The notes below the pieces were generated by a model. The model saw only the letters and a program-made list of their open reading frames with translations, ran no database searches and was not told the DNA's origin. The translations under genes and the position numbers were made by a program. From Uliginosibacterium gangwonense (lineage in GTDB: Bacteria > Pseudomonadota > Gammaproteobacteria > Burkholderiales > Rhodocyclaceae), in NCBI GenBank assembly GCA_020723855.1, contig DYIB01000017.1, positions 1 to 35,312 of the forward strand: a DNA stretch of 35,312 bases, written 5' to 3'. Shown one piece after another: positions 2,766 to 32,456 of the stretch; the stretch's first letter is position 1, and each line of letters begins with the position of its first letter.

Positions 2766-2793
2766 CGCAACTCGGAATCAAGGAGCGCTCGCT

Positions 2794-3525: not shown

Positions 3526-3532
3526 CGGCAGC

Positions 3533-5636: not shown

Positions 5637-5674
5637 CAGGCGTTGCGTTACCCGCCACCCATAAGGAGCCAAAC

Positions 5675-7024: not shown

Positions 7025-7039
7025 CGCGACGGAGAAGGC

Positions 7040-9699: not shown

Positions 9700-9715
9700 A
9701 CGGAGAGAGACTGAC

Positions 9716-10633: not shown

Positions 10634-10687
10634 CAAACGGCACGGATTGCACGGATAGTCCCGCTATCTTCATCCATGGCGCGATAG

Positions 10688-11128
10688 ATGGACTGCAACG
10701 ACTGCGAATTTCGTCCGGAGCTCCATTACGACGACCAGTTCCAGATCTGGGTGAAAGCGGAGGCGGCAGGCACCCTGTTGATCGGCATGACGGATCTGTC
10801 CCAGACCCTCGCCGGCAAGATCCTGCACGTGCGCGTGCGCCGGCCGGGCAGCCTGCGGCCGGCCGGCAAGCCCGTGGCGACGGTGGAGACGGGCAAGTGG
10901 GCGGGGCCGGTGCCGAACGTCTTCGACTGCGAGATCGTGACGGGCAATGAGGAAGTGATGGACAACCCTTCGCTGATCAACGCCGACCCTTACGAGCACT
11001 GGATCGCACGCGTGCGGTCCACCGTGGCCGTGGCCCAGGCCCTGGCCGGCCTGCCCACGGGCGAGGCGGCGCGCACTGCCTATTGCGAGAGGGCGAAGAG
11101 AGACAATATCCGGTGCCGCAGAGCATGA
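10688..11128 (+). CDS. lbpA: Lipoate-binding protein (GcvH-like, LbpA type), first copy
   Basis: GcvH-like fold with lipoylation motif VATVETGKWAGPVPNVFDCEIV; directly after shdrB2; stop overlaps the dsrE start as ATGA. Confidence 0.85.
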   Translation: MDCNDCEFRPELHYDDQFQIWVKAEAAGTLLIGMTDLSQTLAGKILHVRVRRPGSLRPAGKPVATVETGKWAGPVPNVFDCEIVTGNEEVMDNPSLINADPYEHWIARVRSTVAVAQALAGLPTGEAARTAYCERAKRDNIRCRRA

Positions 11129-11520
11129 AGGGCGAAGGCTACGTGGACCATGCGGAGAAGACCGTGGTCATTGTCATGACCAGCGGCCCGTCCACGCCCC
11201 ATCGCTGCGCCACGCCCTTCTTCATCGCCATGCTGCTCGCCGCCATGGATGCCCGGGTGTCCCTGTTCTTCACCATGGAGGGCGTCAAGCTTGCCAAGAA
11301 GGGTGTTGCCGACAACCTGGTGGCCCTGGAGGGGGGCAAGCGCATCATCGAATTCCTGCGCGAGGCCAAGGCGGCCGGCGTGAAGATGTTCATGTGCCGT
11401 CCGGCCATGCCGGGCTACGACATCGACGAGTCGGACGTGATCCCCGAAATCGACGAGATCGCCAGCGGCGGCACCCTGGCGGATCTCATCCTGTCCTCGG
11501 ACAAGGCCTTGTTCTTCTGA
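11125..11520 (+). CDS. DsrE-family sulfur carrier/transferase protein
   Basis: DsrE-like alternation VVIVMTSGPSTPHRCATPFFIAMLLAAMDARVSLFFTMEGVKLAKKG...VKMFMCRPAM with a candidate active Cys; ATGA coupling to the preceding lbpA supports start 11125 over 11083. Confidence 0.8.
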   Translation: MKGEGYVDHAEKTVVIVMTSGPSTPHRCATPFFIAMLLAAMDARVSLFFTMEGVKLAKKGVADNLVALEGGKRIIEFLREAKAAGVKMFMCRPAMPGYDIDESDVIPEIDEIASGGTLADLILSSDKALFF

Positions 11521-11544
11521 TTCCTGCTCAAGGGAGAAAAAACC

Positions 11545-11982
11545 ATGGCAACCGTAAGAAACTGCAACCTGCCCGACGACCTCTACTACAGCGTCGAGAA
11601 CAACGTCTGGGCGCGCCTGGAGGCCGACGGCACCCTCACCGTCGGCATGACCGCCTACGCCTGCAACCTGGCGGGCGAAGTGGTGGCCTTCACGCCCAAG
11701 AAAGTGGGCAAGGAGATCGAGCAGAACAAGTCGGTCGCCACCGTCGAGTCGGGCAAGTGGGTGGGCCCGGTGAAGGCGCCGGTGACCGGCGAGATCATCG
11801 CCACCAACGACGCCGTCGCCGCCAAGCCCGGCACCATCAATGCCGATCCCTATGGTGCCGGCTGGCTGGTGAAGATGAAGCCCAGCGACTGGGCCGGCCA
11901 ATCGGGCAGCCTCGTCACCGGGGCGGCGATTGCCGCCGCCTTCGAGGCCAAGATGAACGCCGACGGCTTCGCCGGCTGCTGA
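11545..11982 (+). CDS. lbpA: Lipoate-binding protein (GcvH-like, LbpA type), second copy
   Basis: MATVRNCNLPDDLYYSVENNVWARLEADGTLTVGMTAYACNLAGEVV...VATVESGKWVGPVKAPVTGEI lipoyl-lysine motif; preceded by AGGGAGA ribosome site. Confidence 0.9.
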   Translation: MATVRNCNLPDDLYYSVENNVWARLEADGTLTVGMTAYACNLAGEVVAFTPKKVGKEIEQNKSVATVESGKWVGPVKAPVTGEIIATNDAVAAKPGTINADPYGAGWLVKMKPSDWAGQSGSLVTGAAIAAAFEAKMNADGFAGC

Positions 11983-11992
11983 AGCGAAGCGC

Positions 11993-13114
11993 GTGAACGC
12001 CTGGCAGGACATCGTCACCCGCGTCGAGCCGCTGGAGGACGCGGCCCTCGACACGCGCCTGGTGGACGAGATGGAGCGCCGCCACGGCGGCCTGCACGCC
12101 CGCGCCGGCATCAACTTCTATACGCCCACCTTCAAGGCCTATGCCAGCAGCGAGATCGGCGTCTGCGGCAAGAGCGCCTGGCCGGCGGTTTCCATCACCG
12201 GGCCCGAGTGCAAGCTGCAATGCGACCACTGCAAGGCCAAGCTGCTGGAGCCCATGATCCCGGCGCGCACGCCCGAAGCCCTGTGGCGCGTGGTGAATGA
12301 AAGAATCGAGGCGGGTGCCAAGGGCATGCTGCTCACCGGCGGCTCCAACCACCGCGACGAGGTGGAGTACGGGCCCTTCTATTCCACCATCCGCCGCATC
12401 AAGGACAGCTTCCCGGATTTCAAGATCGCCATCCACACCGCCCTGGTGACGCCGGATGCCGCCCGCTGCCTGGAGCAGGCGGGCATCGACGCGGCCATGC
12501 TGGACATCATCGGTGCCCAGGACACCGTCACCCAGGTGTATCACCTGAAGCGGCCCGTGGCCGACTTCGAGGCCTCGCTGGCCTGCCTCACCGAGACGTC
12601 GCTGAAGGTGGTGCCCCATATCGTCATCGGCCTGCACTATGGGCGCCTGCTGGGGGAGTGGACGGCACTGGAAATGATCCGGCGCCACCAGCCCGCGGCG
12701 CTGGTGCTGGTGGTGATCATGCCCTTTTACGCGCCGGCTCAGCGTCCCTTCGCTGTGCCGCCCAGCGCCGAGGTGGGGCGCTTCTTCATGGACGCGCGCG
12801 CGGCCCTGCCCGACATCCCCCTGCTGCTGGGCTGCGCCCGACCGCCCGGGCGCGCCAAGCAGGAGATCGACGCCTACGCCGTGCTCGCCGGCGTGAACGG
12901 CATCGCCCACCCGGCCGACGGCATGGTCGAGCTGGCGCTGCGCCTGGGGCGCGAAGTGCGGGTGACGCCGGCCTGCTGCTCCATCGCCGTGGGCGACGAG
13001 GTCATGGCGCCGGAGGGCGGCAGCGGCGGCCTGCGGGTGGACCTGCAGCGCCTGATCGAAGCCGAACGCCGCGGGCGCAAGCTCGGCGGCATCAAAGTCG
13101 TGACAACGACCTGA
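11993..13114 (+). CDS. Radical SAM protein of the sLpl/LipS lipoate assembly pathway (LipS1/LipS2-like)
   Basis: CxxxCxxC radical SAM motif GPECKLQCDHCKAKLLEPM; located between lbpA and the lipoate ligase; GTG start. Confidence 0.75.
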   Translation: MNAWQDIVTRVEPLEDAALDTRLVDEMERRHGGLHARAGINFYTPTFKAYASSEIGVCGKSAWPAVSITGPECKLQCDHCKAKLLEPMIPARTPEALWRVVNERIEAGAKGMLLTGGSNHRDEVEYGPFYSTIRRIKDSFPDFKIAIHTALVTPDAARCLEQAGIDAAMLDIIGAQDTVTQVYHLKRPVADFEASLACLTETSLKVVPHIVIGLHYGRLLGEWTALEMIRRHQPAALVLVVIMPFYAPAQRPFAVPPSAEVGRFFMDARAALPDIPLLLGCARPPGRAKQEIDAYAVLAGVNGIAHPADGMVELALRLGREVRVTPACCSIAVGDEVMAPEGGSGGLRVDLQRLIEAERRGRKLGGIKVVTTT

Positions 13115-13124
13115 GGAGAGAGAC

Positions 13125-14183
13125 ATGCAGACCTGGCGAGTGATCGACACGGGCATCCGCCGCGCGGCGGAGAACTTCGCCCTCAACCGGGCGCTGCTGG
13201 AGGCGCGCAAGAACGGCGCCTCTCCCAGCACCCTGCGCTTCCTGCAGTTCAAGCCCAGCGCGCTGCTGGGCTACCACCAGAGCGCCGAGCAGGAACTGAA
13301 GCTCGACTACTGCGCCGAGCACGGCATCGACATCCAGCGTCGCATCACCGGCGGCGGCGCCCTGTACATGGATGAGACCCAGTTCGGCTGGGAACTCTAC
13401 CTGCATAAAAGCGACCTGGGCAGCGCCGACATGACGGCCATCGCCCGACGCATCTGCGAAGCGGCGGCACGCGGCATTTCCAGCTTCGGCGTGGACGCGC
13501 GCTTTCGCCCGCGCAACGACATCGAGGTGGGCGGGCGCAAGATCTCGGGCACCGGCGGCGCCTTCGACGGCGACGCCCTGCTGTACCAGGGCACGCTGCT
13601 GGTGGAGTTCGACGTGGAAAAGATGCTGCGCTGCCTCCGCATCCCGGCCGAGAAGCTGTCGGACAAGGCCATCCAGGACGCCCGCGACCGGGTGGTGAAC
13701 CTCAAGGACCTGTTGGGCTATGCGCCGCCTCTGGACGAGGTGAAGGGCCGGGTGCAGCAGGCCTTTGCGGCGGAGTTCGGCGTGAAGTTCGAGCCGGGCG
13801 GGCTGAACGAGACGGAGCAGAAGCTGTTCCGCGAGGCCCTGGCCCAGATCGACACCCCCGAGTGGATACACCTGGTGCGCAAGCCCCAGTCGGACCTGCC
13901 CATCCTCGAGGCCGGGCAGAAGTTCGCCGGCGGCCTGCTGCGCGCCGCCGTGGCCTACGACCGGGTGGGGAGCCGCATCAAGCAGACCTGGTTTACCGGC
14001 GACATCTTCGTGAACCCGCGGCGCACCGTGGCCGACCTGGAGGCGGCGCTGAAGGACCTGGCGCTGGACAAGCTGGACGAGACGGTGCGCGGCTTCTTCG
14101 CCGGGCGGCAGGTGGACATGCTGACCCTGACCCCCGACGATTTCATCGCCGTGGTGAAGCAGGCCGTGGACAGTGGGCGCTGA
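13125..14183 (+). CDS. sHdr-associated lipoate-protein ligase (sLpl(AB)-like)
   Basis: LplA family: RRITGGGALYMDETQFGWELY and GGRKISGTGGAF with catalytic-type Lys; additional C-terminal accessory region. Confidence 0.82.
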   Translation: MQTWRVIDTGIRRAAENFALNRALLEARKNGASPSTLRFLQFKPSALLGYHQSAEQELKLDYCAEHGIDIQRRITGGGALYMDETQFGWELYLHKSDLGSADMTAIARRICEAAARGISSFGVDARFRPRNDIEVGGRKISGTGGAFDGDALLYQGTLLVEFDVEKMLRCLRIPAEKLSDKAIQDARDRVVNLKDLLGYAPPLDEVKGRVQQAFAAEFGVKFEPGGLNETEQKLFREALAQIDTPEWIHLVRKPQSDLPILEAGQKFAGGLLRAAVAYDRVGSRIKQTWFTGDIFVNPRRTVADLEAALKDLALDKLDETVRGFFAGRQVDMLTLTPDDFIAVVKQAVDSGR

Positions 14184-15240
14184 CCTACGGTGCGACGTAC
14201 TGGTCGTGGGCCTCGGCCCCGCTGGCGGGGCCGCGGCCGCCGCGGCGGCGCGAGCGGGCCTGGACGTGATCGCCATCGAGCGCAAGGCCAGGATCGGCCT
14301 GCCGGTGCAATGCGCCGAGTTCATCCCGGCGCCCCTGGGCCGCCACGCCCGGGCCGAGGGGGTGGAACGGCAGCGCATCCGCGCCATGCGTACGCGCCTG
14401 CCTTCCGGTGCGGCGACTGACACCCCCTTCAGCGGCATCATGGTGGACCGCGCCGCCTTCGATGCGGCCCTGGCCGAACGCGCAAGTGCTGCCGGCGCGC
14501 GGCTCCTGAACAATACCGCGCTCGAGGTCCTGCTGCCGGGACAGCGCGCTCGCCTGCGCGGCGCCGGCAGCGCGCGGGAGATCACCTACCGGCTGCTGGT
14601 CGCCGCCGACGGCCCCGGCTCCCGGGTCGCCCACTGCCTGGGCTTGGCGCCTCTGCAGAGCGTTCATACGCGCCAATACACCGTGCCGCTGCTGACACCG
14701 AGCGAGCAAACGGATATCTGGCTGTCGCCCGCGTACCCGGGCGGCTATGCCTGGCTCTTCCCCAAAGGCGGGCTGGCGAACCTCGGCCTGGGGCTGGACC
14801 GCCGCTTCGCCCGCGATCTCAAGGCGCCCCTGGAGGAGCTGCATGGGCGCCTTGCCGCCGGGGGCATCGTTGCCCGCGACATCCGCTGCCGCACCGGCGG
14901 GCTGATTCCCGTGGGCGGCCTGCGCGGGCGGCTGGTGCAGGATACGGTGCTGTTCGCCGGCGACGCGGCCGGGCTGACCCATCCCGTCACCGGGGCGGGC
15001 ATTGCCGCGGCGGTGATCTCGGGCGAGCGTGCCGGCGCGGCCTGCGCGGCCTGCCTCGGCGGCGATGGCGGCGCGCTGGCCGATTACGAAGAGGACATGC
15101 GCGACCAGTTCGGCGACTCCCTGGCGCGCGCCGTACGCGCCCGCGCTGCCCTGGAACAGGTGTGGAACACGCCGGCGGCGGCGGACGATGCATACCACCG
15201 CCGCGGCTGGATTGCCTTCGACGAATATTACGCCCGGTGA
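14173..15240 (+). CDS. Geranylgeranyl-reductase-like FAD oxidoreductase (LipT-like)
   Basis: N-terminal DVLVVGLGPAGGAAAAAAARAGLDVIAIERK, C-terminal VLFAGDAAGLTHPVTGAGIAAAVISGERAG; GTG start overlapping the ligase stop; position between ligase and second radical SAM. Confidence 0.75.
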   Translation: MGADLRCDVLVVGLGPAGGAAAAAAARAGLDVIAIERKARIGLPVQCAEFIPAPLGRHARAEGVERQRIRAMRTRLPSGAATDTPFSGIMVDRAAFDAALAERASAAGARLLNNTALEVLLPGQRARLRGAGSAREITYRLLVAADGPGSRVAHCLGLAPLQSVHTRQYTVPLLTPSEQTDIWLSPAYPGGYAWLFPKGGLANLGLGLDRRFARDLKAPLEELHGRLAAGGIVARDIRCRTGGLIPVGGLRGRLVQDTVLFAGDAAGLTHPVTGAGIAAAVISGERAGAACAACLGGDGGALADYEEDMRDQFGDSLARAVRARAALEQVWNTPAAADDAYHRRGWIAFDEYYAR

Positions 15241-15248
15241 CGACCCCC

Positions 15249-16382
15249 ATGAGCACGGTACTCGACAATGCCCAGCCTGTGAACTTCTACCGCCCCAATT
15301 ACCACATCAAGACGCCCGACATGCGCTCGCCCGAGTACGTGCAGATGAGCACGGCGGCGGCCATCACCCTGGGCCTGGTGCCGGGCAGGATGCACCGCAC
15401 CGCCTGCACCCACTGCCTCAACCTGCTGGTGACCTACCGGGAAGGCTGCCGTGCCAACTGCGCCTACTGCGGCCTGGCGCGCCACCGGGAGGAGGCGCGC
15501 GACTATGCCGACCGCAACTTCATCCGGGTGGACTGGCCCACGGTGCGCTACGACGAGGTGATCGAACGCGTCAAGAAAGGCGGCGACCGCGGCCAGTTCG
15601 AACGCATGTGCATTTCCATGATCACCCATCCCGAGTCCAATGGCGACACGGTGACGCTGCTGGACAAGTGGGTGGCCGGGCTGCCCCACATCCCCGTGTC
15701 CATCCTGTCCAACCCCACCACCATGGACAAGGCCGACCTGGAGGATCTGCGCCGGCGCGGCGCCGACATCTTCACCGTGGCGCTGGACGCGGTGACGCCG
15801 GCGATCTTCGAGCGCACCCGGGGCAAGGGCGTGGACTCGCCCCACAAGTACGAGAAGTACTGGCAGGCCATCGAGTGGGCGGCGGAAGTGTTCGGCCCGG
15901 AAAAGTTCGGGGCGCATCTCATCTGCGGCATGGGCGAGACCGAGCGCGAAATCCTGGAGGTGTGCCAGAAGATCCGCGACATGGGCGGCCACAATCACAT
16001 GTTCGCCTTCTTTCCCGAGCGCGGCTCCCTCATGGAGGACTGGCCCCCCTGCGACCGGGGCCAGTGGCGGCGCGTGCAGCTCGGGCGCTTCCTCATCGAT
16101 TACGCCGGCGGCCACGTGTCGCGCATGGGCTTCGACGACCAGGGGCGCGTGGTGGATTTCGGCTGCGACGAGGCCACGCTGCAGAGGATCATTGACTCCG
16201 GCAAGCCCTTCCGCACGTCGGGCTGCCCGGGCAAGAGCGACGAAGAGGTATCGGCCTGCAACCGGCCCTACGGCGATTCCACCCCCAGCGACATCCTGTC
16301 GTTCCCGTTCGCGCCCAAGAAGCGTGACCTGGAGAAGATCCGCCGGCAGATGCAGGGGGAGGAGGTGAAGGCGGGGATTTGA
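15249..16382 (+). CDS. Second radical SAM protein of the lipoate assembly pathway (LipS1/LipS2-like)
   Basis: YREGCRANCAYCGLARH radical SAM CxxxCxxC motif; BioB/LipA-like layout; ATG at 15249. Confidence 0.77.
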   Translation: MSTVLDNAQPVNFYRPNYHIKTPDMRSPEYVQMSTAAAITLGLVPGRMHRTACTHCLNLLVTYREGCRANCAYCGLARHREEARDYADRNFIRVDWPTVRYDEVIERVKKGGDRGQFERMCISMITHPESNGDTVTLLDKWVAGLPHIPVSILSNPTTMDKADLEDLRRRGADIFTVALDAVTPAIFERTRGKGVDSPHKYEKYWQAIEWAAEVFGPEKFGAHLICGMGETEREILEVCQKIRDMGGHNHMFAFFPERGSLMEDWPPCDRGQWRRVQLGRFLIDYAGGHVSRMGFDDQGRVVDFGCDEATLQRIIDSGKPFRTSGCPGKSDEEVSACNRPYGDSTPSDILSFPFAPKKRDLEKIRRQMQGEEVKAGI

Positions 16383-16400
16383 GCCGGCCACGAGGCCGGC
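16383..16400 (+). other. Hairpin directly after the radical SAM stop codon (possible weak terminator)
   Basis: GCCGGCC-ACGA-GGCCGGC perfect 7-bp stem; no immediate T tract (T8 occurs at 16433-16440). Confidence 0.4.
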
Positions 16401-16551
16401 CTTCGAATTGCTCTTCGACGCGAGCCCATGCATTTTTTTTAATGCCGGCATCACAAAAATTTTCTGGCGCAAAGACTCTCCCGGGATCATCATTTTGTCA
16501 AATATAAGCAATCCGCCGCATGCTAATGTTCGGCGGGAAGAGGAGACAACC

Positions 16552-17169
16552 ATGGGAGTCACCCCCGACATCGCCACCCTGGACGCCCTGATCCGACAGC
16601 GCCTGGACGAGATCCTGCCCCAGGCCCTGGACGAGAAGCTGGCGCAGATGAGGGCGGCCAGGACGCCGTCGATGACCATCATCGCCACCAAGGGCACCCT
16701 GGACTGGGCCTATCCCCCCTTCATCCTCAGCTCCACCGCGGCTGCGCTGGGCTGGGACGTGTCGATCTTCTTCACTTTCTATGGCCTGAACCTGCTGAAG
16801 AAGGACATCAGCGACCTCAAGGTGAGCCCCCTGGGCAATCCGGGCATGCCCATGAAGATGCCCTTCGGGCCCGAGTGGTTCAGGCACATCAACTGGAACA
16901 TTCCCAACATCGTCCAGGCCAACATGCCCGGCTTCGAGGCCATGGCCACGGCCCTCATGAAGCAGACCATCAAGAACAACGGCGTGGCGGACATCGCCGA
17001 GCTGCGTTCCCTGTGCGTGGAAGCGGGAGTCAATCTGATCGGCTGTCAGATGACGGTGGACCTGTTCGGCTTCACCCATGACGATTTCATTCCGGAGGTG
17101 AAGGAGTACTGCGGCGCCGCCACCTTCCTGCCCATGGCGCAGGAGGCCGACGTCAGCTTGTTCATGTAA
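16552..17169 (+). CDS. DsrE/DsrF/DrsH-like family protein (DsrE2/DsrE3-like)
   Basis: MTIIATKGTLDWAYPPFILSSTAAALGWDVSIFFTFYGLNLLKK and GVNLIGCQMTVDLFG; ribosome site AGGAG upstream of ATG 16552. Confidence 0.82.
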   Translation: MGVTPDIATLDALIRQRLDEILPQALDEKLAQMRAARTPSMTIIATKGTLDWAYPPFILSSTAAALGWDVSIFFTFYGLNLLKKDISDLKVSPLGNPGMPMKMPFGPEWFRHINWNIPNIVQANMPGFEAMATALMKQTIKNNGVADIAELRSLCVEAGVNLIGCQMTVDLFGFTHDDFIPEVKEYCGAATFLPMAQEADVSLFM

Positions 17170-20417: not shown

Positions 20418-20476
20418 TTGACAAGAACTCTGAATTCAGAATACAGTGATTTCTGCATTCTGAATTCAGACTGCAG
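20418..20476 (+). promoter_or_regulatory. Candidate dctP promoter with two palindromic operator sites
   Basis: TTGACA (20418-20423); CTGAATTCAG at 20430-20439 and 20460-20469 (30 bp apart); the second sits in a 24-bp palindrome CTGCATTCTGAATTCAGACTGCAG (20453-20476, 11 of 12 pairs complementary). Confidence 0.65.
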
Positions 20477-20581: not shown

Positions 20582-21610
20582 ATGGGGGACTTCACTCGGA
20601 GACACTTTCTCAAAACGGCCGCGTTCGCCGGGGCGGCGGCGATGGCTGGCATCGCGAGGGCGCAGTCGCCTGTCGGAAAGGCTGCGGAGTTCAAATTCAA
20701 GCTTGGGACCGATCTGCCGGTCACCCATTCGGTGAACGTCCGACTCAAGGAGGCGATCGACGCCATCGCCGCGGAGACGAATGGACGGGTTGCCATTCAG
20801 CTTTTTCCCAACAACCAGTTGGGCAGCGACTCCGACATGATGTCGCAGATCCGGTCCGGGGCTCTCGAGCTCGCGACTTTCCCGGGGACGGTCATGTCAA
20901 CGCTCATCCCCGCCACCTCGATCACGGGCGTGGGCTTCGCTTTTTCGAGCTATGACAAGGTCTGGGCGGCGATGGACGGCGCCGTGGGCAACCATATCCG
21001 CCGCGCGATCGAGAAGGTCAACCTGTTCCCATTCGAGGCCGTCTGGGACAACGGATTCCGTCAAGTCACGACCAGCACGCGGCCGATCCGCACGCCCGAG
21101 GACCTCCAGAACCTCAAGATCCGCGTGCCCGTGGTTCCGCTGTGGGTCTCGATGTTCAAGGCCCTTGGCGCCGCGCCCGTCAGCCTGCCGCTGAGCGAGG
21201 CCTATCAGGCGCTCCAGACCAAGGTGGCCGACGCACAGGAAAACCCGCTTGCGCTGATCGAATCCGCGAAGTTCTACGAGGTCCAGAAGTACTGCTCGCT
21301 GACCAACCACGCCTGGGACGGATTCTGGTTCATCGCCAACGGCAGGATCTGGAAGACGCTGCCATCCGACGTGCAGCAGGTGATGCTCAAACATTTCAAC
21401 GCGGCGGCCCGAAAGCAGCGGGACGACATCGCGCGCGCGAATGTCACGCTCCAAAAGGCATTGGAGGAAAAGGGGCTCACTTTCAACAAGGTGGACAACT
21501 CGGCCTTCCGGGAGGTTCTGCGCAAGAGCGGCTTCTATTCTCAATGGCGCGAGAAGTTCGGCACCGAGACCTGGACCTTGCTGCAGCAATACGCAGGTGA
21601 CATCGCCTGA
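20582..21610 (+). CDS. dctP: TRAP transporter substrate-binding protein (DctP family), Tat-type signal
   Basis: TRRHFLKTAAFAGAAAMAGIARAQ Tat-like leader; DctP-like LGTDLPVTHSVNVRLKEAIDAIAAETNGRVAIQLFPNNQLGSDSDMMSQIRSGALEL; AAGGAGG ribosome site. Confidence 0.9.
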   Translation: MGDFTRRHFLKTAAFAGAAAMAGIARAQSPVGKAAEFKFKLGTDLPVTHSVNVRLKEAIDAIAAETNGRVAIQLFPNNQLGSDSDMMSQIRSGALELATFPGTVMSTLIPATSITGVGFAFSSYDKVWAAMDGAVGNHIRRAIEKVNLFPFEAVWDNGFRQVTTSTRPIRTPEDLQNLKIRVPVVPLWVSMFKALGAAPVSLPLSEAYQALQTKVADAQENPLALIESAKFYEVQKYCSLTNHAWDGFWFIANGRIWKTLPSDVQQVMLKHFNAAARKQRDDIARANVTLQKALEEKGLTFNKVDNSAFREVLRKSGFYSQWREKFGTETWTLLQQYAGDIA

Positions 21611-23518: not shown

Positions 23519-25279
23519 ATGGCTGAACAAACTATCAGAACCGGTCTTTCGCGCACGCAGCCGATCGCGGTTGCCGAGGTGGTCGCCGCGTTGCTGGTCG
23601 CACGGGGTGTGGATCGGGTATTCGGTTTGCAAGGCGGACACATTCAACCGGTCTGGGATCACCTTGCCATGCGCGGTGTACGCATCGTGGACGTGCGCGA
23701 CGAAGGGGCGGCGGTACACATGGCCCAGGCCCATGCCCAATTGACCGGGCAGCTCGGCGTCGCGCTGGTGACGGCCGGGCCGGGCGTTACCAATACGGTA
23801 TCGGCCATCGCCAATGCTACGCTGTCGCGCATTCCGGTCATCCTCATCGGCGGTTGCCCTCCGCGCCCGCAGGCCAACATGGGGCCGCTGCAGGATATTC
23901 CCCACGTGAACATCATGGCGCCCATCACGCGCCATGCGAGGACAGCGCGCGTCGCCGAACAGGTTGCGCGTGAGCTTGACGAGGCCGTTGCGCGAGCGCA
24001 CGGCGACGCCGGAGAACCCGGCGCCGTGTATATGGAGATCCCGACCGACACGCTGCGGGAAACCGTCGCGCCTGCAGTGGTGCTGGACGAGCATTTGAGC
24101 GGACGGCCGAAGCGGGAGATCCTGCCCGCCGAAGCGGATGTCGCGGCAGCCGTCGAGGCGCTGTGGTCAGCCAGGCGCCCGCTGGTCATCAGTGGACGCG
24201 GTGCGATGGGGGCTGCATCGGAACTCGTGCGACTGCTCGACCGGCTGGGCGCGGTGTACCTCGACACCCAGGAAAGCAGGGGTCTGGTGCCCGCCGACCA
24301 CCCTTCGATGGTCGGCGCCGTGCGCGGACTCGCCATGCAGGAAGCCGATCTGGTCCTGACCATCGGGCGCAAGCTCGACTACCAATTGGGTTACGGCTCC
24401 CCTGCCGTGTTCCGGAGCGCGCCACGCTTCATCCGCCTCGCAGACAACGCCGGAGAGTTGATCGACAACCGCCGCGGTGATCCGGAGCTGCTCGGCTCTC
24501 CGGCGCGGGCGCTGGCGGCCATCCTGGAGCGCGTGGGGGACCGCCCGTCGGGGGCGGACCGAGCCTGGGCCGCTGCGCTTCGCCAACGGCACGAGGAACG
24601 CACCGCCAGTTACGTCAACGCCCTGGCCTCCGCACCGTCTGGCCGTGACGGGCGGATGCACCCCAACCGCATTTTTGCGGCGATCCACGAGGTAGCGGCC
24701 GAGGACGCGATCTTCGTGGCCGACGGCGGCGACATCTTGAGCTTCGCGCGTGTCGGACTGCCCGCCGGCACAGGGTACCTGGACAGCGGCGTCTTCGGCT
24801 GCCTGGGGGTGGGGGTTCCGTTTGCCAATGCCGCCGCCCTGGCATTCCCGGGCCGCCAGGTCATCTCGATCAACGGCGATGGCGCCCTCGGGATCAATGC
24901 CATGGAGATCGATACCGCGGTCCGCCACGGCGCGAAGGTGGTCCACATCGTGGCCAACAATGCGGCCTGGAACATCGAACGCTACGACCAGGAGAGCAAC
25001 TACGGCGGCCGTGTCGTCGGCACGACTCTGCGCTACTCGGACTACGCGGCCGTTGCGCGGGGGCTCGGCGCATATGCCGAGCGCGTCGAGGACCCCGACG
25101 AGCTGGCCGGCGCGCTGCGTCGCGCGCTGGAGAATGCCCCCGCCGTACTCGATGTGGTCCTTACCCAGGACGCGGTCTCCTCGGACGCCCGCAAGGGGCT
25201 GGGATTCGTGCCCGACTACCAGGCGCTGATCGAATGGGACGAGGCCGAGCGTGCCCGCCGGCAACAAAGGAAGGGCTGA
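23519..25279 (+). CDS. Thiamine diphosphate-dependent enzyme (acetolactate synthase / 2-hydroxyacyl-CoA lyase superfamily), paralog 1
   Basis: [15 protein letters not shown], conserved Glu in [19 protein letters not shown], ThDP motif [29 protein letters not shown]; alternative GTG start at 23504. Confidence 0.87.
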
Positions 25280-25284
25280 ATCAA

Positions 25285-26847
25285 ATGAGTCATCTGCTCA
25301 CCGTTTCTGATGCCATTGCCACCCACGCGAGGTTGCAGCCGCGCAAGATCGGCGCCCGCGACTCGAAGCGCACGCTGACCTTTGCCGAATGGGACGATCG
25401 TGCCAGCCGGCTCGCCAATGGCCTGCTCGGGCTGGGCCTGACCAAGGGCGACCGCGTCGCCGTGCTCGCCTACAACTGCGTCGAATGGATGGAGATCTAC
25501 GTCGCGCTCGGGCGCGCCGGGCTGGTGGCGGTGCCGATCAACTTCCGCCTGCTCGGCCCGGAGATCTCCTACATCGTCGCGCACAGCGAAGCACGCGCCG
25601 TGATCGTCCAGCACGAACTGTGCGACCGGATCGAGTCGGTCCGCTCCGAGCTGCCGCTGGAGCCGCACTACTACGTTCATTTCGGCGGCGACACGCCTGT
25701 CGGCTGGCAGGGCTACGAGGCGCTCATCGGTGCCGCGCCGGCGGGTGCGCCGTTGGAGTCGGTCAGGCCCGAAGACCCGTTTGCGCTGATGTACACCTCG
25801 GGCACCACCGGCCGCCCGAAGGGCGCGATCCGCGGCCACGAGGGCAACGCGCTGCTGGCACTCGCCACCGCCCTCGAGTTCGGCTTCTCGCGCGAGGACA
25901 CCGGTCTGCTCGTGATGCCGCTGTGCCATGCGAACTCGCTCTACTTCGGCCTGACGTTCATGTACCTGGGCGCCACGATCGTCGTCGAGGACCGTCAGAG
26001 CTTCGACCCGGAGGCCCTGCTCGCGACGCTTGCGCGCGAAAAGGTCACGTTCACCTCCCTGGTGCCCACGCATTACATCATGATGCTCGGCCTGCCCGAG
26101 GCGGTGAAGGCGAAGTACGACGTGAGCGCCGTCGACAAGCTTCTGATCTCCTCGGCCCCGGCACGCAAGGACACCAAGCTCGCCATCCTCGAATATTTCA
26201 GGAATTCCCGATTGTTTGAGCTCTACGGGTCCACGGAGGCCGGCTGGGTCACGCTGCTGCGGCCGGAAGAGCAGATCGGCAAGCTCGGATCCGTCGGACG
26301 GGAGTGGGTCGGCTCGGGGGCGATCAAGCTGCTCGATCCGGACGGCAACGAGGTTCCCGACGGCGAGGTCGGCGAGTTGTACTCGCGCACGTCCTATGTC
26401 TTCGACGGCTACTGGAAGAACCCCGAGAAGACCGCGGAAGCGTTCCGGGGCGAATGGTGCTCGGTCGGTGACATGGCGCGCCGCGACGCCGACGGCTATA
26501 TCCATCTGGTTGACCGCAAGGGCAACATGATCATCAGCGGCGGCGAGAACATCTACCCCTCCGAGATCGAGGCCGTGCTCGGCGCCCATCCCAAGGTCAA
26601 GGACGTGGCGGTCATCGGCGTGCCCCACGAGAAATGGGGCGAGACGGTCCAGGCGGTCATCGTGCTGCACGAGCGGCAGACGGCGAGCGAGGCCGAGATC
26701 CTCGACTGGTGCAAGGAGCGCATGGCGGGCTACAAGCGCCCGCGCTCCGTGGTGTTCATCTCGGATGCCGACATGCCGCGCACTGCCACCGGCAAGATTC
26801 TTCATCGGGCGTTGCGCGAGAGGCTGTCCCGAGGAGAGTCGCGATGA
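25285..26847 (+). CDS. Acyl-CoA synthetase / AMP-dependent ligase
   Basis: YTSGTTGRPKGAIRGHEG (P-loop), FELYGSTEAG, GEWCSVGDMARRDADGYIHLVDRKGNMIISGGENIYPSEIE, C-terminal RTATGKILHRALRE. Confidence 0.93.
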   Translation: MSHLLTVSDAIATHARLQPRKIGARDSKRTLTFAEWDDRASRLANGLLGLGLTKGDRVAVLAYNCVEWMEIYVALGRAGLVAVPINFRLLGPEISYIVAHSEARAVIVQHELCDRIESVRSELPLEPHYYVHFGGDTPVGWQGYEALIGAAPAGAPLESVRPEDPFALMYTSGTTGRPKGAIRGHEGNALLALATALEFGFSREDTGLLVMPLCHANSLYFGLTFMYLGATIVVEDRQSFDPEALLATLAREKVTFTSLVPTHYIMMLGLPEAVKAKYDVSAVDKLLISSAPARKDTKLAILEYFRNSRLFELYGSTEAGWVTLLRPEEQIGKLGSVGREWVGSGAIKLLDPDGNEVPDGEVGELYSRTSYVFDGYWKNPEKTAEAFRGEWCSVGDMARRDADGYIHLVDRKGNMIISGGENIYPSEIEAVLGAHPKVKDVAVIGVPHEKWGETVQAVIVLHERQTASEAEILDWCKERMAGYKRPRSVVFISDADMPRTATGKILHRALRERLSRGESR

Positions 26848-28565
26848 GTCCAGCAGAAGTCTCCGGGAATTCCGCAGCGGCGGTGATCGCCCGTTTCCTC
26901 AAGTCGCGCGGAGTGGACCGCGTGTTCGCCCTGTGCGGCGGCCACATCATGCCGATCTGGATGCGTCTAGATGCCGAGGGCATCCGCATCGTCGACGTGC
27001 GCGACGAGCGCGCCGCCGTGTACATGGCCCACGCCCACGCCGAGCTGACCGGCGCCCTGGGGGTGGCGCTCATCACGGCGGGACCCGGCGTGACGAACGC
27101 CATGACCGGCATCGCCAACGCGCACGTGGCCCGGGCGCCGGTACTGATCCTGTCCGGAGTGCCGCCGCGGCCCCAGGAGAACCGGGGGGCCCTGCAGGAC
27201 ATGGCGCACACGGATTTCGTGCGCCCGCTCACCCGTTACGCCCGCACGGTGCGTCAGCCGGAGCTGGTGCTGCAGGAGCTGGACGAGGCCGTTTCCCGCG
27301 CCTTCGGCCAGGGCGGGGAACCGGGGCCCACCTACCTCGACTTCCCGGTGGATACCCAGCGCACCGAAGTGCCGCGCGCCGTGCAACTGCCTGAATACTT
27401 TGCGCCCAAGCCAAAGGACCGCCTGTTGCCCGACCCGGACGCGGTGGGGCGGGCGGTGGACCTGCTGTGGTCGGCGCGCCGGCCCCTGTTCATCTCGGGC
27501 CGCGGCGCCCGCGGGGCGAGAGCGTCGCTCGTGAGCCTGATCGAGCGCTTGAGCGCCCTGTATCTGGACACCGGGGAGAGTCGTGGTCTAGTGCCGGAGG
27601 AGCACCCGTCGGTGGTGGCTGCGATGCGAGGTTCCGTCATGAGCGAGGCGGACCTGGTCGTCACCGTGGGCCGGCGGCTCGATTTCCAACTGGCCTACGG
27701 CTCGCCTGCCATTTTCGGCAACGCGCAATTCCTGCGCATCGCCGATTGCGCGTCGGAGCTGCGGGATAACCGGCGCGGTGCCGTGGAGCTCTTCGCCACG
27801 CCGGCAGATGCCCTGGAAGCCATTCTCGAAGCGGCCGGCGACCGCCCGCCTGCGACCGATCGCGAATGGGCGCGCGCGGTGCGCGCCAGGCACCTGGAGC
27901 GCGCGGACAAGTTGCTCGCCTCCATGCGTGCCGCGCCCCCGGGCAGCGACGGCCTCATGCACCCGAACCGTCTGCTCGCCGCCCTGCGCGAGGCCCTGCC
28001 GCGCGACGCGGTGGTGATCGCCGACGGCGGGGATTTCCTCAGCTTCACCCGCGTCGGTCTGCCTGCCTCGACCTATCTCGACCCCGGCTCCCTCGGCTGC
28101 ATCGGCATCGGCACGCCGTTCGGCGTCGCCGCCAGTCTCGCCTGCCCGGAGCGCACTGTGGCCGTGGTGACGGGGGATGGCTCCTTCGGCTTCAACGCCA
28201 TGGAGATCGACACCGCCGCCCGGCACCGGGCGCCGGTGCTGATCGTGGTTGCCAACAACGGCTCTTGGGCCATCGAGGTGCGCGACCAGCAGGAGACCCA
28301 CGGCAAGGTGGTCGGTACCCGCCTGCAGTTCGCCGATCATGCGGCGATGGCGCGCGCCTTCGGCCTGCACGGCGAGCGCGTCGAGCGGGCCGAGGACCTG
28401 CCGGCGGCCATCGAGCGGGCACTGGCCAACCGGCCCGCGCTGCTGGATGTGCTGGTCACCCCGGAGGCCGTCTCCTCGGACGCCCGCTCCGGGCTTGCCT
28501 GGGTGCCGGACCTGCAACCGCTCGCCGCCTGGGACGAGGCCGAGCGCGCGTGGCGCCGATCATGA
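26844..28565 (+). CDS. Thiamine diphosphate-dependent enzyme (acetolactate synthase / 2-hydroxyacyl-CoA lyase superfamily), paralog 2
   Basis: [68 protein letters not shown] overlap with the upstream ligase; C-terminus closely parallels paralog 1 (AVSSDARSGLAWVPD...WDEAERA). Confidence 0.88.
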   Translation: MSPAEVSGNSAAAVIARFLKSRGVDRVFALCGGHIMPIWMRLDAEGIRIVDVRDERAAVYMAHAHAELTGALGVALITAGPGVTNAMTGIANAHVARAPVLILSGVPPRPQENRGALQDMAHTDFVRPLTRYARTVRQPELVLQELDEAVSRAFGQGGEPGPTYLDFPVDTQRTEVPRAVQLPEYFAPKPKDRLLPDPDAVGRAVDLLWSARRPLFISGRGARGARASLVSLIERLSALYLDTGESRGLVPEEHPSVVAAMRGSVMSEADLVVTVGRRLDFQLAYGSPAIFGNAQFLRIADCASELRDNRRGAVELFATPADALEAILEAAGDRPPATDREWARAVRARHLERADKLLASMRAAPPGSDGLMHPNRLLAALREALPRDAVVIADGGDFLSFTRVGLPASTYLDPGSLGCIGIGTPFGVAASLACPERTVAVVTGDGSFGFNAMEIDTAARHRAPVLIVVANNGSWAIEVRDQQETHGKVVGTRLQFADHAAMARAFGLHGERVERAEDLPAAIERALANRPALLDVLVTPEAVSSDARSGLAWVPDLQPLAAWDEAERAWRRS

Positions 28566-28610
28566 CGACCGACGCCCCTGTGAGGGCCCGATTTCATAGG
28601 ACGATACCAT

Positions 28611-29792
28611 ATGGACTTCGCCATCCCCGAGCCGCTCGCGCAACTGCAGGCGCGCATCCGTACCTTCATCGCCGAGCAAGTCATCCCCTACGAGTCAGAC
28701 CCGCGCCAGGGCCCACACGGACCCGATAACTCGCTGTGCCTCGAACTCATGGCCCGCGCTCGGGAAGCCGGCCTGCTCGCGCCCCACGCCTCGAAGGAGT
28801 ACGGAGGCCTCGGGCTATCGCATTTCGGCCGCGCCATCGCCTTCGAGGAGGCCGGTTACTCCCCCCTCGGCCCGGTGGCGCTCAATGTCTTTGCTCCCGA
28901 CGAAGGCAACATGCACCTGCTGGAAACCGTGGCGAAGCCCGAGCACAAGGAGCGCTGGTTGCGCCCCTTGGTTTCCGGCGAGATCCGCTCCTGCTTCTGC
29001 ATGACCGAGCCGCCGCCCGGTGCCGGCTCCGATCCTTCCATGCTCAATACCACCGCGGTGCCCGACGGCGACGAATACGTCATCAACGGGCTGAAGTGGT
29101 TCACCACCGGCGCCGAGGGCGCCCGGCTCGCCATCATCATGGCCAGGATTCCGGAGGTGGGTGCGACCATGTTCCTCTCCGATATGGACGCGTCCGGCAT
29201 CACCGTCGTGCGCAACTTGGACACCCTGGACACCTGCTTTCCGGGCGGACACGGGGTGGTGCGCTTCACCGATCTGCGCGTGCACGCCCGGGACATCCTC
29301 GGCGAGCCGGGGAAGGGCTTCAAGTACGCCCAGGTGCGCCTGTCGCCGGCGCGCCTGACCCACTGCATGCGATGGCTGGGCGCGGTGCGCCGCGCCCACG
29401 ACATCGCCGTGGATTACGCGCGCCGCCGCCATGCTTTTGGCCGGCCGCTGGGCGAGCACGAGGGCGTGGGCTTCATGCTCGCCGACAACGAGATGGACAT
29501 GCACGTGGCGCGGCTCGCCATCTGGCACTGCGCGTGGGTGCTGGACCAGGGGGAGCTGGCGCTGACCGAATCGAGCCGGGCCAAGGTGATCGTGGCCGAA
29601 GCCGTGTGGCGCGTGGCCGACCGCTGCGTGCAGATTCTCGGCGGCCAGGGCGTCACCGGCGAGACGGTGGTGGCGCGCATCTTCGCCGACGTGCGGGCCT
29701 TCCGCATCTACGACGGTCCCTCCGAGGTGCACCGCTGGAGCCTCGCCAAGCGTATCCTGAAGGGCGAGCGCCGGGCCGGGGGCGCCGCATGA
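28611..29792 (+). CDS. Acyl-CoA dehydrogenase, ACAD10/11-like
   Basis: APDEGNMHLLE...SCFCMTEPPPGAGSDPSML...YVINGLKWFTTGAEGARLAII...GGQGVTGETVVARIFADVRAFRIYDGPSEVH. Confidence 0.9.
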   Translation: MDFAIPEPLAQLQARIRTFIAEQVIPYESDPRQGPHGPDNSLCLELMARAREAGLLAPHASKEYGGLGLSHFGRAIAFEEAGYSPLGPVALNVFAPDEGNMHLLETVAKPEHKERWLRPLVSGEIRSCFCMTEPPPGAGSDPSMLNTTAVPDGDEYVINGLKWFTTGAEGARLAIIMARIPEVGATMFLSDMDASGITVVRNLDTLDTCFPGGHGVVRFTDLRVHARDILGEPGKGFKYAQVRLSPARLTHCMRWLGAVRRAHDIAVDYARRRHAFGRPLGEHEGVGFMLADNEMDMHVARLAIWHCAWVLDQGELALTESSRAKVIVAEAVWRVADRCVQILGGQGVTGETVVARIFADVRAFRIYDGPSEVHRWSLAKRILKGERRAGGAA

Positions 29793-30565
29793 GCACCCTT
29801 GCCGAGCATTTTCGTTTGGACGGACGGCGGGCCCTGGTGACCGGAGCCTCGAGCGGACTGGGGCATCATTTCGCCCGCGTCCTGGCGGGCGCCGGTGCGA
29901 CCGTGGTGGTAGCGGCGCGGCGCGCAGACAAGCTCGCCGAAACCGTGGCCGAGATCGAATCCTCGGGCGGAAAAGCCCTGGCCGTGAGTCTTGATGTGAC
30001 CGATCCGGCCAGCGTGCGCGCCTGCTTCGACGAAATCGCGGCCAGGACCGGTACCGCCGATGTGATCGTCAACAATGCCGGCGTCGCGATCACGCGGGCC
30101 GTCCTCGAGCAGTCGGAGTCGGACTGGGACACCGTGCTCGACACCAACCTCAAGGGGGCGTGGCTGGTGGCCCAGGAAGGTGCCCGGCGGATGATCGACG
30201 CCGGGTTGCCCGGCGTCATCGTCAACATCGCCTCCATCACCGGCGAGCGCGTGGCCGGCGGGGTGGCCCCCTACTGTGCGTCCAAGGCCGGCCTGATCCA
30301 CCTCACCCGGGCCATGGCACTGGAACTGGCCCGCAGCCGCATCCGCGTCAACGCCCTCGCCCCCGGTTACGTGCAAACCGAGCTGAATCGCGAGTTCCTC
30401 GCCTCGGAGGCGGGTGAGCGCCTGAAGGCGCGCATTCCGCAGCGGCGTTTTGGCCGGCCCGAGGATCTGGCCGGTCCGCTTCTGCTGCTCGCCTCCGAGG
30501 CCGGGGCCTACATGACGGGGAGTGTCGTCTTCGCCGACGGCGGCCATCTCGTGAGCACCCTATGA
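29789..30565 (+). CDS. Short-chain dehydrogenase/reductase
   Basis: TGASSGLGHHFARVLAGAGA, NNAG, YCASKAG, PGYVQTELN motifs; ATGA overlap with acyl-CoA dehydrogenase stop. Confidence 0.93.
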   Translation: MSTLAEHFRLDGRRALVTGASSGLGHHFARVLAGAGATVVVAARRADKLAETVAEIESSGGKALAVSLDVTDPASVRACFDEIAARTGTADVIVNNAGVAITRAVLEQSESDWDTVLDTNLKGAWLVAQEGARRMIDAGLPGVIVNIASITGERVAGGVAPYCASKAGLIHLTRAMALELARSRIRVNALAPGYVQTELNREFLASEAGERLKARIPQRRFGRPEDLAGPLLLLASEAGAYMTGSVVFADGGHLVSTL

Positions 30566-31629
30566 GGACCGGCATCAGCATGAAATCCCTCCCGACAGAA
30601 CCAGAACTCGCCCGGCACGCGTTTGACACCGACCGTCTGGCGGCCTACCTGCGCGCGCAGGTGTGTGACTTCCGTGGCGCGCTGAGCGTGGAGCCGTTCG
30701 CCGGCGGCCAGTCGAACCCCACCTACCTGATCACCGCCGGAGAGCGACGCTACGTACTCCGGCGCAAGCCGTCGGGCGTATTGCTTCCCGCCGCGCACGC
30801 AGTCGACCGCGAGTACTACGTCATGCGGGCGCTCGCCGACAGCGGCGTGCCGGTCCCCCGGGTCTATGCCCTGTGCGAGGACACCTCGGTAGTGGGGACG
30901 CCCTTCTACGTGATGGAATTCATCGAAGGCCGCGTCCTATGGGACCCGTCGCTGCCGGGCATGACACCGGCGCAACGGGCGGCCGTCTACGATGAGCTGA
31001 ACCGGGTGATTGCTGCACTGCACGGCGTGGACTACCGGGCGGCGGGGCTTGCCGATTTCGGCAAGCCGGGGAACTACCTCACCCGCCAGATCGAACGATG
31101 GACGCGCCAGTACCGGGCCTCGGAAACCGAAACCATCGAGGCCATGGAGCGCCTGATCGAGTGGCTTCCGGCCCACCGGCCCGAAGGGGAGGAGACGGCG
31201 CTCGTCCATGGCGACTACCGTATCGACAACGTGATCTTCCACCCGAGCGAGCCGCGAATTCTCGCAGTGCTCGATTGGGAACTGTCGACCCTGGGACACC
31301 CGCTCGTCGACTTCGCCTACCATTGCATGACCTGGCGCGTGTCGCCCGAGGAGTTCCGCGGGCTCAAGGGTCACGATCTACGTGCGCTTGGCATTCCGCA
31401 GGAAGATGCATATTTGGCTGCCTACTGCCGCCGCACTGGCAGAGACGTCGTCCCCCACTGGGACTACTACCTGGTTTTCAACATGTTTCGCATGGCCGCC
31501 ATCCTGCAGGGCATACTGGCGCGCTCGCGCCACGGGACTGCCGCGAGCGCTGACGCCGCGGAGACGGGAAAACGGGCGCGGCTCATGGCAGAAGCGGGAT
31601 GGCGGCAGGCTAAGCAATTGGAAAGCTGA
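30562..31629 (+). CDS. APH-fold phosphotransferase, ACAD10/11 kinase-domain-like
   Basis: LLPAAHAVDREYYVMRALADSGVPVPRVYALCEDTSVVGTPFYVMEFIEG and LVHGDYRIDNVIFHPSEPRILAVLDWELSTLGHPLVDFAY; ATGA overlap with SDR. Confidence 0.88.
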   Translation: MRTGISMKSLPTEPELARHAFDTDRLAAYLRAQVCDFRGALSVEPFAGGQSNPTYLITAGERRYVLRRKPSGVLLPAAHAVDREYYVMRALADSGVPVPRVYALCEDTSVVGTPFYVMEFIEGRVLWDPSLPGMTPAQRAAVYDELNRVIAALHGVDYRAAGLADFGKPGNYLTRQIERWTRQYRASETETIEAMERLIEWLPAHRPEGEETALVHGDYRIDNVIFHPSEPRILAVLDWELSTLGHPLVDFAYHCMTWRVSPEEFRGLKGHDLRALGIPQEDAYLAAYCRRTGRDVVPHWDYYLVFNMFRMAAILQGILARSRHGTAASADAAETGKRARLMAEAGWRQAKQLES

Positions 31630-31662
31630 ATTCAGAATTCCACATAATATATACTTGTATAT
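31618..31662 (+). promoter_or_regulatory. Candidate gntR promoter/operator region
   Basis: TTGGAA (31618-31623), CTGAATTCAG (31626-31635), CATAAT (31643-31648) and ATATAC-TT-GTATAT palindrome (31649-31662) in the short AT-rich gap before gntR. Confidence 0.5.
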
Positions 31663-31697: not shown

Positions 31698-32456
31698 ATG
31701 AAGGTATTATCCACACACCCTAAGCTGGTCGAGCAGGTCTATGAGGCGATTCTCTCCGAGATATCAGAGGGGAAGTTTCCGCTCGGCACGCGGCTCATCC
31801 AGGATCAGCTCGCACACGAGCTCGGCGTATCGCGGCAGCCGGTTCAGCAGGCGCTGCTCCTGTTGCGCAACCAGGGAATCCTCCGGGATGCGCCAGGTCG
31901 CGGACTTATCGTGGCGCCACTGGATCTGGATTACGTGCAGAACTTGTATGAGATCAGAGCGGTGCTGGAAGGACTCGCATGCCGAAAGGCCGCCGAGAAA
32001 AACGCGGAGCGCGCCAGAAAGGTTGGACCGACGCTGATCAAGAGAGGCCGAGACGCGGTGAAAAGCGGATCCGTAGCAAACATGATCGTTGCGGATATGA
32101 AGTTTCACGAGTTTATCCACGAGCTTTCAGAAAATCCGTTGATCGCTGCATCGACCGAGTCACACTGGGTTTACATGCGTCGAGTGATGGGTGAGGTTCT
32201 GATGCAGGATGAGAGGCCGCGCGACATCTGGAATCAGCACGCACGTATTCTGGACGCTATCGCCAAAGGCGACGCGCCAACCGCCGAAGATCTGGTGCGC
32301 CAGCATATCTTGCAGGCTGCAAATTTCATGATCGCACGCTTGCGCAGTCAAAAGAGCGATGTGCCTTTGACGGCGAGCCGCCAGCCTCGTATCGCGGAAG
32401 AGGTGACCGCGAATGCGGAAGGCATCGCAATCCCGGGGGGTGGCGCCCGCCGCTAG
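31698..32456 (+). CDS. GntR-family transcriptional regulator with FCD ligand-binding domain
   Basis: wHTH LGTRLIQDQLAHELGVSRQPVQQALLLLRNQGIL; FCD metal-type residues in DMKFHEFIHELSENP, QHARILDAI, RQHI. Confidence 0.9.
   Translation: MKVLSTHPKLVEQVYEAILSEISEGKFPLGTRLIQDQLAHELGVSRQPVQQALLLLRNQGILRDAPGRGLIVAPLDLDYVQNLYEIRAVLEGLACRKAAEKNAERARKVGPTLIKRGRDAVKSGSVANMIVADMKFHEFIHELSENPLIAASTESHWVYMRRVMGEVLMQDERPRDIWNQHARILDAIAKGDAPTAEDLVRQHILQAANFMIARLRSQKSDVPLTASRQPRIAEEVTANAEGIAIPGGGARR

Follow-up and report, generated by a model that had tools for sequence, protein, structure and literature searches.

The window analyzed here, a stretch of 35,312 nucleotides of Uliginosibacterium gangwonense (contig DYIB01000017.1, positions 1 to 35,312), contained six intact, open genes between 23519 and 31629, all on the forward strand. 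These were predicted to encode a ThDP-dependent 2-hydroxyacyl-CoA lyase of the AcHACL type (HACL1, or ThDP1; 23519..25279), an AMP-forming acyl-CoA synthetase, hereafter the ligase (25285..26847; PF00501 and PF13193), a second 2-hydroxyacyl-CoA lyase from a separate clade (HACL2, or ThDP2; 26844..28565), an LvaC-like acyl-CoA dehydrogenase from a sister clade of ACAD10/ACAD11 (ACAD; 28611..29792; assigned by residues, tree, and PDB matches), an SDR oxidoreductase that is LvaD-like in position and class (29789..30565; PF13561), and an LvaA-like APH-fold kinase of the ACAD10/11 kinase-domain type (30562..31629; PF01636, 210 bits). ATGA overlaps joined the ligase to HACL2 (at 26844), the ACAD to the SDR (at 29789), and the SDR to the kinase (at 30562), and the other gaps were 5 bp (HACL1/ligase) and 45 bp (HACL2/ACAD). 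Translation agreed with the original prediction, which had placed six genes with these three overlaps at the same coordinates and a ligase between two paralogous ThDP enzymes (the proteins are 57% identical); each of the enzyme classes that it proposed was backed by Pfam and NCBIfam profiles.

The extent given to the operon was nevertheless too narrow, because two TRAP transporter genes precede the six genes and a regulatory gene follows them, all on the forward strand. The solute-binding protein DctP (20582..21610) scored above the cut-offs of PF03480 and TIGR00787, and the permease, a DctQ-DctM fusion in a single frame with PF04290 and PF06808 (21618..23507), was located 7 bp from DctP and 11 bp from HACL1. 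A GntR/FCD-family transcriptional regulator (31698..32456; PF00392 and PF07729) starts 68 bp 3' of the kinase gene. Only two promoter-like sites were identified on the forward strand of this region, at 20418 (5' of DctP) and at 31619 (5' of GntR). The palindrome CTGAATTCAG, a proposed GntR operator, occurs twice across the former (20418..20470; TTGACA/TACAGT), at 20430-20439 and 20460-20469, and a third time 5' of the GntR gene (31626..31635). The transcription unit very likely begins upstream of ThDP1, at the TRAP genes. A hairpin splitting the operon between HACL2 and ACAD was rejected, as the RNA fold was weaker than that of shuffled sequences (z +1.1) and terminator calling was negative. 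Genes encoding a thiolase, a hydratase, or formyl-CoA-handling enzymes were absent from the operon.

Both ThDP proteins exceeded the curated cut-off (600 bits) of NF058623, the NCBIfam equivalog for 2-hydroxyacyl-CoA lyase, with 980 bits for HACL1 and 826 bits for HACL2. Their best PDB match was AcHACL of Actinomycetospora (7pt1; 736 and 611 bits, respectively), followed by the next PDB family at 231 and 239 bits. The catalytic residues E493, Q128, H44, and T88 of AcHACL and its size-limiting residues L127 and I492 were all identical in HACL1 and HACL2, and the C-terminal lid (AcHACL 556-590) could be aligned in the two proteins, that of HACL2 carrying substitutions. By these sequence criteria the two proteins are 2-hydroxyacyl-CoA lyases of the AcHACL type; the equivalog and the conserved active-site residues make specific what had been a guess at lyase function. 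The competing identity, acetolactate synthase, which the original prediction had named as a challenge to itself, or oxalyl-CoA decarboxylase (OXC), has almost no probability. The fold and Pfam domains are held in common, and the two proteins scored 346-363 bits to PRK05858 and 240-252 bits to the OXC model, but these scores were far under the respective cut-offs of 587 and 557, whereas both proteins passed the HACL cut-off. Furthermore, both contained the E493 of AcHACL, where acetolactate synthases have Val (PMC13327070); the scores and this residue ruled out either identity.

The two lyases differ in pocket residues. The signature of HACL1, QHTLQNIE, is that of AcHACL and was common to 87 sequences; Q41 and N491 of AcHACL were kept in HACL1 and in 87/87 sequences with this signature. 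HACL2 has the signature CHTLQAIE, with Q41C and N491A (AcHACL numbering); the clade into which it falls (support 97) comprises 23 sequences, each with Cys at position 41 and either Ala or Gln at position 491. A search with HACL2 across 399 genomes of the order found matches in 33. The HACL2 clade is uncharacterised and, as judged from these residues, appears to be a lyase subfamily with a changed pocket.

The ACAD contained R626, H634, and R637 (HCMR) and the catalytic D753 of mouse ACAD11, located in VRLSPARLTHCMR and IYDGPSEVH, all of which are key active-site residues in the mouse enzyme (PMC12440821). The same four residues were found in every HACL-linked ACAD, and the best PDB matches were 4hr3 and ACAD11. 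The diagnostic residues thus bear out the proposed ACAD10/11-like assignment, but not membership of that clade itself, since a quick tree, which had long branches and left out authentic LvaC, placed the ACAD in a clade (support 86) that is sister to that of ACAD11/4hr3 (support 100). Its position outside the characterised ACAD10/11 clade means that the hydroxyl position handled may differ. The kinase matched 3dxp (479 bits) and ACAD11 (8v3v, 284 bits), and the motifs HGDxxxDN, DRE, and RQ were kept in LVHGDYRIDN, AVDREYYVM, and LTRQIERWTRQY; these include the LvaA/ACAD10-11 residues, namely the catalytic Asp (HGD), the Asn (DN), the Arg by the alpha-C Glu, and the Arg of RQ. SDR/ACAD pairs were present in many loci. 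The SDR LvaD reduces levulinyl-CoA to 4-hydroxyvaleryl-CoA (PMC6692424), which suggests a natural role for the SDR of the operon. On the basis of these comparisons the ACAD, SDR, and APH proteins are assigned as corresponding in kind to LvaC, LvaD, and LvaA. No LvaB-like small protein was encoded within the window, as had been noted before. DUF6285 proteins, which may represent LvaB, adjoin another kinase type in four loci (L146, L016, L189, and L206). The diagnostic motif was also present in three more ACADs of the source genome, and a second kinase adjoins one of these. Among 20 loci that were picked by ACAD alone, some (L189, L206, and L208) resembled complete lva-type operons.

The neighborhoods of the best 80 of 486 HACL relatives in GTDB genomes were surveyed. 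An LvaC-like ACAD and an APH kinase were both located within 6 kb of HACL in 11/80 loci, where chance would give 0.4-1.2 (Poisson P 5e-13 to 4e-8, which is rough because the loci are mutually related), and chance clustering was ruled out by this excess. Genes in the neighbor loci were called by a simple caller, and linkage was under-counted because many contigs were short. Three more loci with HACL, ACAD, and APH (L038, L146, and L165) were found. Two of these fall within the HACL2 clade, and L165 has the order HACL2-ACAD-SDR-APH as in the window (70, 69, 60, and 55% identity, respectively). Loci of the Stappia, Ruegeria, or Jannaschia type (L049, L082, and L084) carry the same operon. According to quick trees without bootstrap, the linkage label changed 2-3 times among the HACL1-side branches of the HACL tree, with two HACL2 lineages in addition, and at least four times on the ACAD tree. 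The co-occurrence of the ThDP and ACAD10/11-like pairs, which was originally proposed as a check, is therefore real and recurrent among unrelated bacteria in several separate lineages.

In contrast, no HACL was found near the ACAD in the 20 loci picked by ACAD alone (0/20). The presence of ACAD, SDR, and APH without HACL in all of these loci indicates that the module is independent and that the two halves of the operon may act in parallel. The single linear route envisaged originally, in which an acid is activated, reduced, phosphorylated, dehydrated, and cleaved, is a hypothesis. The independent occurrence of ACAD-SDR-APH, along with the 45-bp gap between HACL2 and ACAD, could even mean that two unrelated catabolic modules lie side by side with no biochemistry in common. 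This is quite improbable, because the association recurs across several HACL and ACAD lineages, the genes are tight or overlapping under one operator, and the same slot holds kinases of two different subfamilies: in L016, L056, and L146 it is occupied by a different APH type, which is followed by a DUF6285 protein in L146 and L016.

In the source assembly of 3.12 Mb, CTGAATTCAGA occurred only 5' of DctP (twice) and 5' of GntR (once, at 31626). It occurred 36 times in 1.81 Mb of HACL loci, against 0.6 expected, and most sites were within about 150 bp 5' of GntR, ACS, or HACL, whereas HACL-less ACAD loci contained none. CTGAATTCAG marked HACL operons out to Actinomycetospora, where one site was located between GntR and HACL (L074), and GntR relatives adjoined HACL in 39/80 loci. 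When the same 399 genomes were searched for the 14-mer TTCTGAATTCAGAA, it was found in 8/33 genomes with the lyase and in 6/366 without (Fisher P 2e-6), and in all eight lyase genomes it occurred at the lyase locus. The palindrome is a candidate operator to which the GntR protein may bind in regulating the operon. Further sites were located 5' of alcohol-dehydrogenase clusters in L016, L056, and L082. Alcohol dehydrogenases (PQQ- or GMC-type) and ALDH were encoded in the islands L016, L056, L082, L146, and L038; together with L162, these related islands add genes for alcohol/aldehyde dehydrogenases and for class III PHA synthase. Such gene content fits the oxidation of diols to hydroxy acids and their conversion to CoA esters, the products of which are destined for storage or beta-oxidation.

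Substrate hints for the lyases came from the gene neighborhoods. In L164, the HACL2-clade gene directly adjoins a match to the large subunit of 2-hydroxyisobutyryl-CoA (2-HIB-CoA) mutase (4r3u, 1120 bits), and the same operon encodes a match to 2-HIB-CoA ligase (6hdw, 966 bits) 5' of HACL2. The source genome has its own mutase of this type elsewhere (980 bits), along with a partial 2-HIB-CoA ligase gene at a contig end. This neighborhood and the mutase of the source genome point to a 2-hydroxyisobutyryl-CoA-like compound as the best guess for the lyase substrate. DctP was 56% identical to its closest solved structure, PDB 4oan, which we take to have been modelled with 2-acetolactate. This compound is among the TRAP ligand classes (PMC5812351), and homologs of DctP (63-77% identical) were present in 12 HACL loci. 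The mutase in the genome also makes it possible that the operon works in the synthetic direction, in which acetone or butanone and formyl-CoA would be joined into a 2-hydroxyacyl-CoA and isomerized by the B12 mutase to a 3-hydroxyacyl-CoA; in that case, the SDR would act as a 3-hydroxyacyl-CoA dehydrogenase, with a side product left to the kinase and ACAD. Sulfate reducers are described as formylating acetone to 2-HIB-CoA (PMC7888143), and related islands hold the PHA synthase genes described above. On the other hand, the operon is headed by a TRAP importer for an acid, acyl-CoA synthetase relatives travel with the lyase genes, adjoining HACL in 71/80 loci, and the characterised relative cleaves in vivo (PMC7176365), so that synthesis appears unlikely.

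The best explanation, which we regard as about evenly poised between right and wrong, is a GntR-controlled operon for the CoA-dependent catabolism of short-chain hydroxy acids, with two halves that share the ligase, importer, and regulator and are used in parallel. The TRAP transporter would bring in the acid, and the synthetase would convert it to the CoA thioester, supplying both branches: thioesters with a C2-hydroxyl would pass to the lyases, and those with a C4 oxo or hydroxyl group to the SDR, kinase, and ACAD. HACL1 and HACL2 would split 2-hydroxyacyl-CoAs (2-hydroxyisobutyryl-CoA-like, probably C4-C5) into formyl-CoA and a ketone or aldehyde, and their different pockets may broaden the substrate range. 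In the other branch, the SDR would interconvert 4-oxoacyl-CoA and 4-hydroxyacyl-CoA as LvaD does, the kinase would phosphorylate the 4-hydroxyl as LvaA does, and the ACAD would eliminate the phosphate, as in LvaC, to yield an enoyl-CoA or a 3-hydroxyacyl-CoA. C2- and C4-hydroxy acids derived from 1,2- and 1,4-diols could thus be used in parallel. In favor of this explanation are the lyase identity of HACL1 and HACL2, the mutase and ligase neighborhood, the retention of the AcHACL lid and of L127 and I492 (PMC8760513), the Lva-like traits of the second half, the recurrent linkage, the candidate operator, and the dehydrogenases and ALDH of the islands, which fit diol oxidation; the placement of the ACAD outside the characterised ACAD10/11 clade, the lack of thiolase, hydratase, and formyl-CoA-handling genes in the operon, the independence of the ACAD/SDR/APH module, and the two pocket positions at which HACL2 differs from AcHACL count against it. 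The sequences themselves show the enzyme classes, the catalytic residues, the conserved linkage, and the shared operator; the substrates, the parallel use, and the pairing of regulator with operator are inferred.

The two halves could alternatively operate in series. A 2-hydroxy acid with a second carboxyl (2-hydroxy-2-methylglutarate-like) would lose C1 as formyl-CoA through HACL. Once re-activated, the resulting 4-oxo acid (levulinate or similar) would follow the lva pathway exactly, with reduction by the SDR and then phosphorylation and dehydration. Such a route is attractive, as it accounts for the occurrence, in several lineages, of an lvaCDA-type set under one operator and in one operon with a lyase that forms methyl ketones, all of the required enzyme classes are present, and carboxylates are substrates of the TRAP carrier family. 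However, the conserved AcHACL lid, which restricts acyl groups to about C5 (PMC8760513), argues against such a large substrate, a dicarboxylic 2-hydroxy acid of this kind is not known as common, and the ACAD set is absent from most HACL loci, which renders the series improbable. A new route from a tertiary 2-hydroxy acid through an oxo acid formed by a ThDP lyase and a phosphorylated 4-hydroxyacyl-CoA to beta-oxidation is likewise doubtful. If true, it would run on the HACL2 subfamily and the ACAD10/11-like clade, both uncharacterised, under one GntR operator common to Actinomycetota and Pseudomonadota.

HACL enzymes are wanted for one-carbon synthesis, and the chemistry of mammalian ACAD10/11 has been explained only recently. 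A natural operon that couples the two chemistries provides test cases for their natural substrates, the HACL2 clade with its changed pocket residues adds test material for lyase substrates, and the conserved operator can serve as a regulon marker for locating the remaining pathway genes. No literature on a combined lyase and levulinate-type pathway was found among open-access papers, and neither the joint operon nor HACL2 nor the operator appears to have been described. The original interpretation was borne out in part: its enzyme classes and its lyase guess stood, and the co-occurrence that it proposed to check is real, but its ACAD10/11-like assignment held for the diagnostic residues and not for the clade, and its single route is hypothetical. 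The pathway that it regarded as undescribed is known by halves, as the lyase-ligase half is a published module for 2-hydroxyisobutyrate degradation (PMC7176365) and the levulinate-type half is also known.

In the lyase-HCL cluster of Actinomycetospora chiangmaiensis, which degrades 2-hydroxyisobutyrate (PMC7176365, PMC8760513), an AcHACL-type lyase adjoins a CoA ligase and a GntR regulator as in the present operon, its catalytic residues are identical in HACL1, and the proposed operator palindrome of the present operon also occurs in a related Actinomycetospora (L074). The present operon differs by its second lyase, its TRAP importer, the additional ACAD, SDR, and APH genes, and a ligase that is FadD-like rather than PaaK-like. 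The lva operon of Pseudomonas putida and P. citronellolis (PMC6692424, PMC12440821) contains the same classes of kinase (LvaA), ACAD (LvaC), SDR (LvaD), and CoA synthetase (LvaE), and that of P. citronellolis also lacks LvaB. It differs in that the ACAD described here belongs to a sister clade, the HACL pair and TRAP transporter are added, no LvaB is encoded here, and the regulator is GntR instead of the sigma-54-type LvaR. Mammalian ACAD10/ACAD11 (PMC12440821, PMC11342911) likewise combine a kinase with an ACAD that has the diagnostic Arg, HCMR, and Asp, whereas here the two are separate proteins, the ACAD falls in another clade, and Thr instead of His precedes HCMR. The 2-hydroxyisobutyryl-CoA mutase operon (HcmA/HcmB/MeaH/HCL; 4r3u, 6hdw) works on the CoA ester that is proposed for the lyases here and adjoins HACL2 in L164, but it encodes a B12 isomerase that is located elsewhere in the source genome and is not part of the present operon.

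In locus L164, the stretch 9130-15699 contained a complete 2-hydroxyisobutyryl-CoA mutase/ligase operon with HACL2, the second 2-hydroxyacyl-CoA lyase copy, immediately adjoining it, and judging from sequence this one operon would unite a lyase and a mutase acting on the same CoA ester. The Uliginosibacterium genome itself harbored the mutase large subunit and a MeaB-like GTPase (L209, contig 99, 8522-11933), together with a partial ligase gene where the contig stops; glycine-cleavage-like genes lie next to them. It also contained a second kinase (G000:C130:13390-15658), 69% identical to that of the window, adjoining an ACAD that clustered with ACAD11, apart from the window's ACAD.

Islands combining a PQQ alcohol dehydrogenase, HACL and ACAD/APH/SDR genes were present in L016, L056, L082, and L146, with PHA synthase PhaE/PhaC-like genes also found in L016, L056, and L146; no description of such islands was found in the open-access literature. 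LvaA-type kinases immediately adjoined DUF6285 proteins of 110-123 aa in L146 (13986-14357), L016 (13994-14326), L189 (8920-9276), and L206 (11105-11476), and these proteins are candidates for LvaB, the small protein of the levulinate pathway. The ACS-HACL contigs L023, L026, and L037 come from MAGs classified as Afifella, as a gammaproteobacterium, and as Chromatiaceae; they were almost identical, reflecting either recent transfer or binning contamination. The 14-mer TTCTGAATTCAGAA occurred in G092, G111, G117, G128, G149, and G349, although these genomes had no HACL match at E <= 1e-120; other targets of related GntR regulators are a possible explanation.

Elsewhere in the window, positions 72-4510 encoded a PhsA/DMSO-reductase-like molybdopterin oxidoreductase large subunit, scoring far under the cut-offs, accompanied by an Fe-S subunit and a third gene. 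A sulfur-oxidation-like cluster (4947-17169), which looks like an sHdr-type system, encoded HdrC/HdrB/HdrA-like proteins along with another HdrB-like subunit. It also encoded lipoate-binding proteins of GcvH-like type (10688-11128 and 11545-11982), a pair of radical SAM proteins, one protein resembling a lipoate ligase and one resembling DsrE2.
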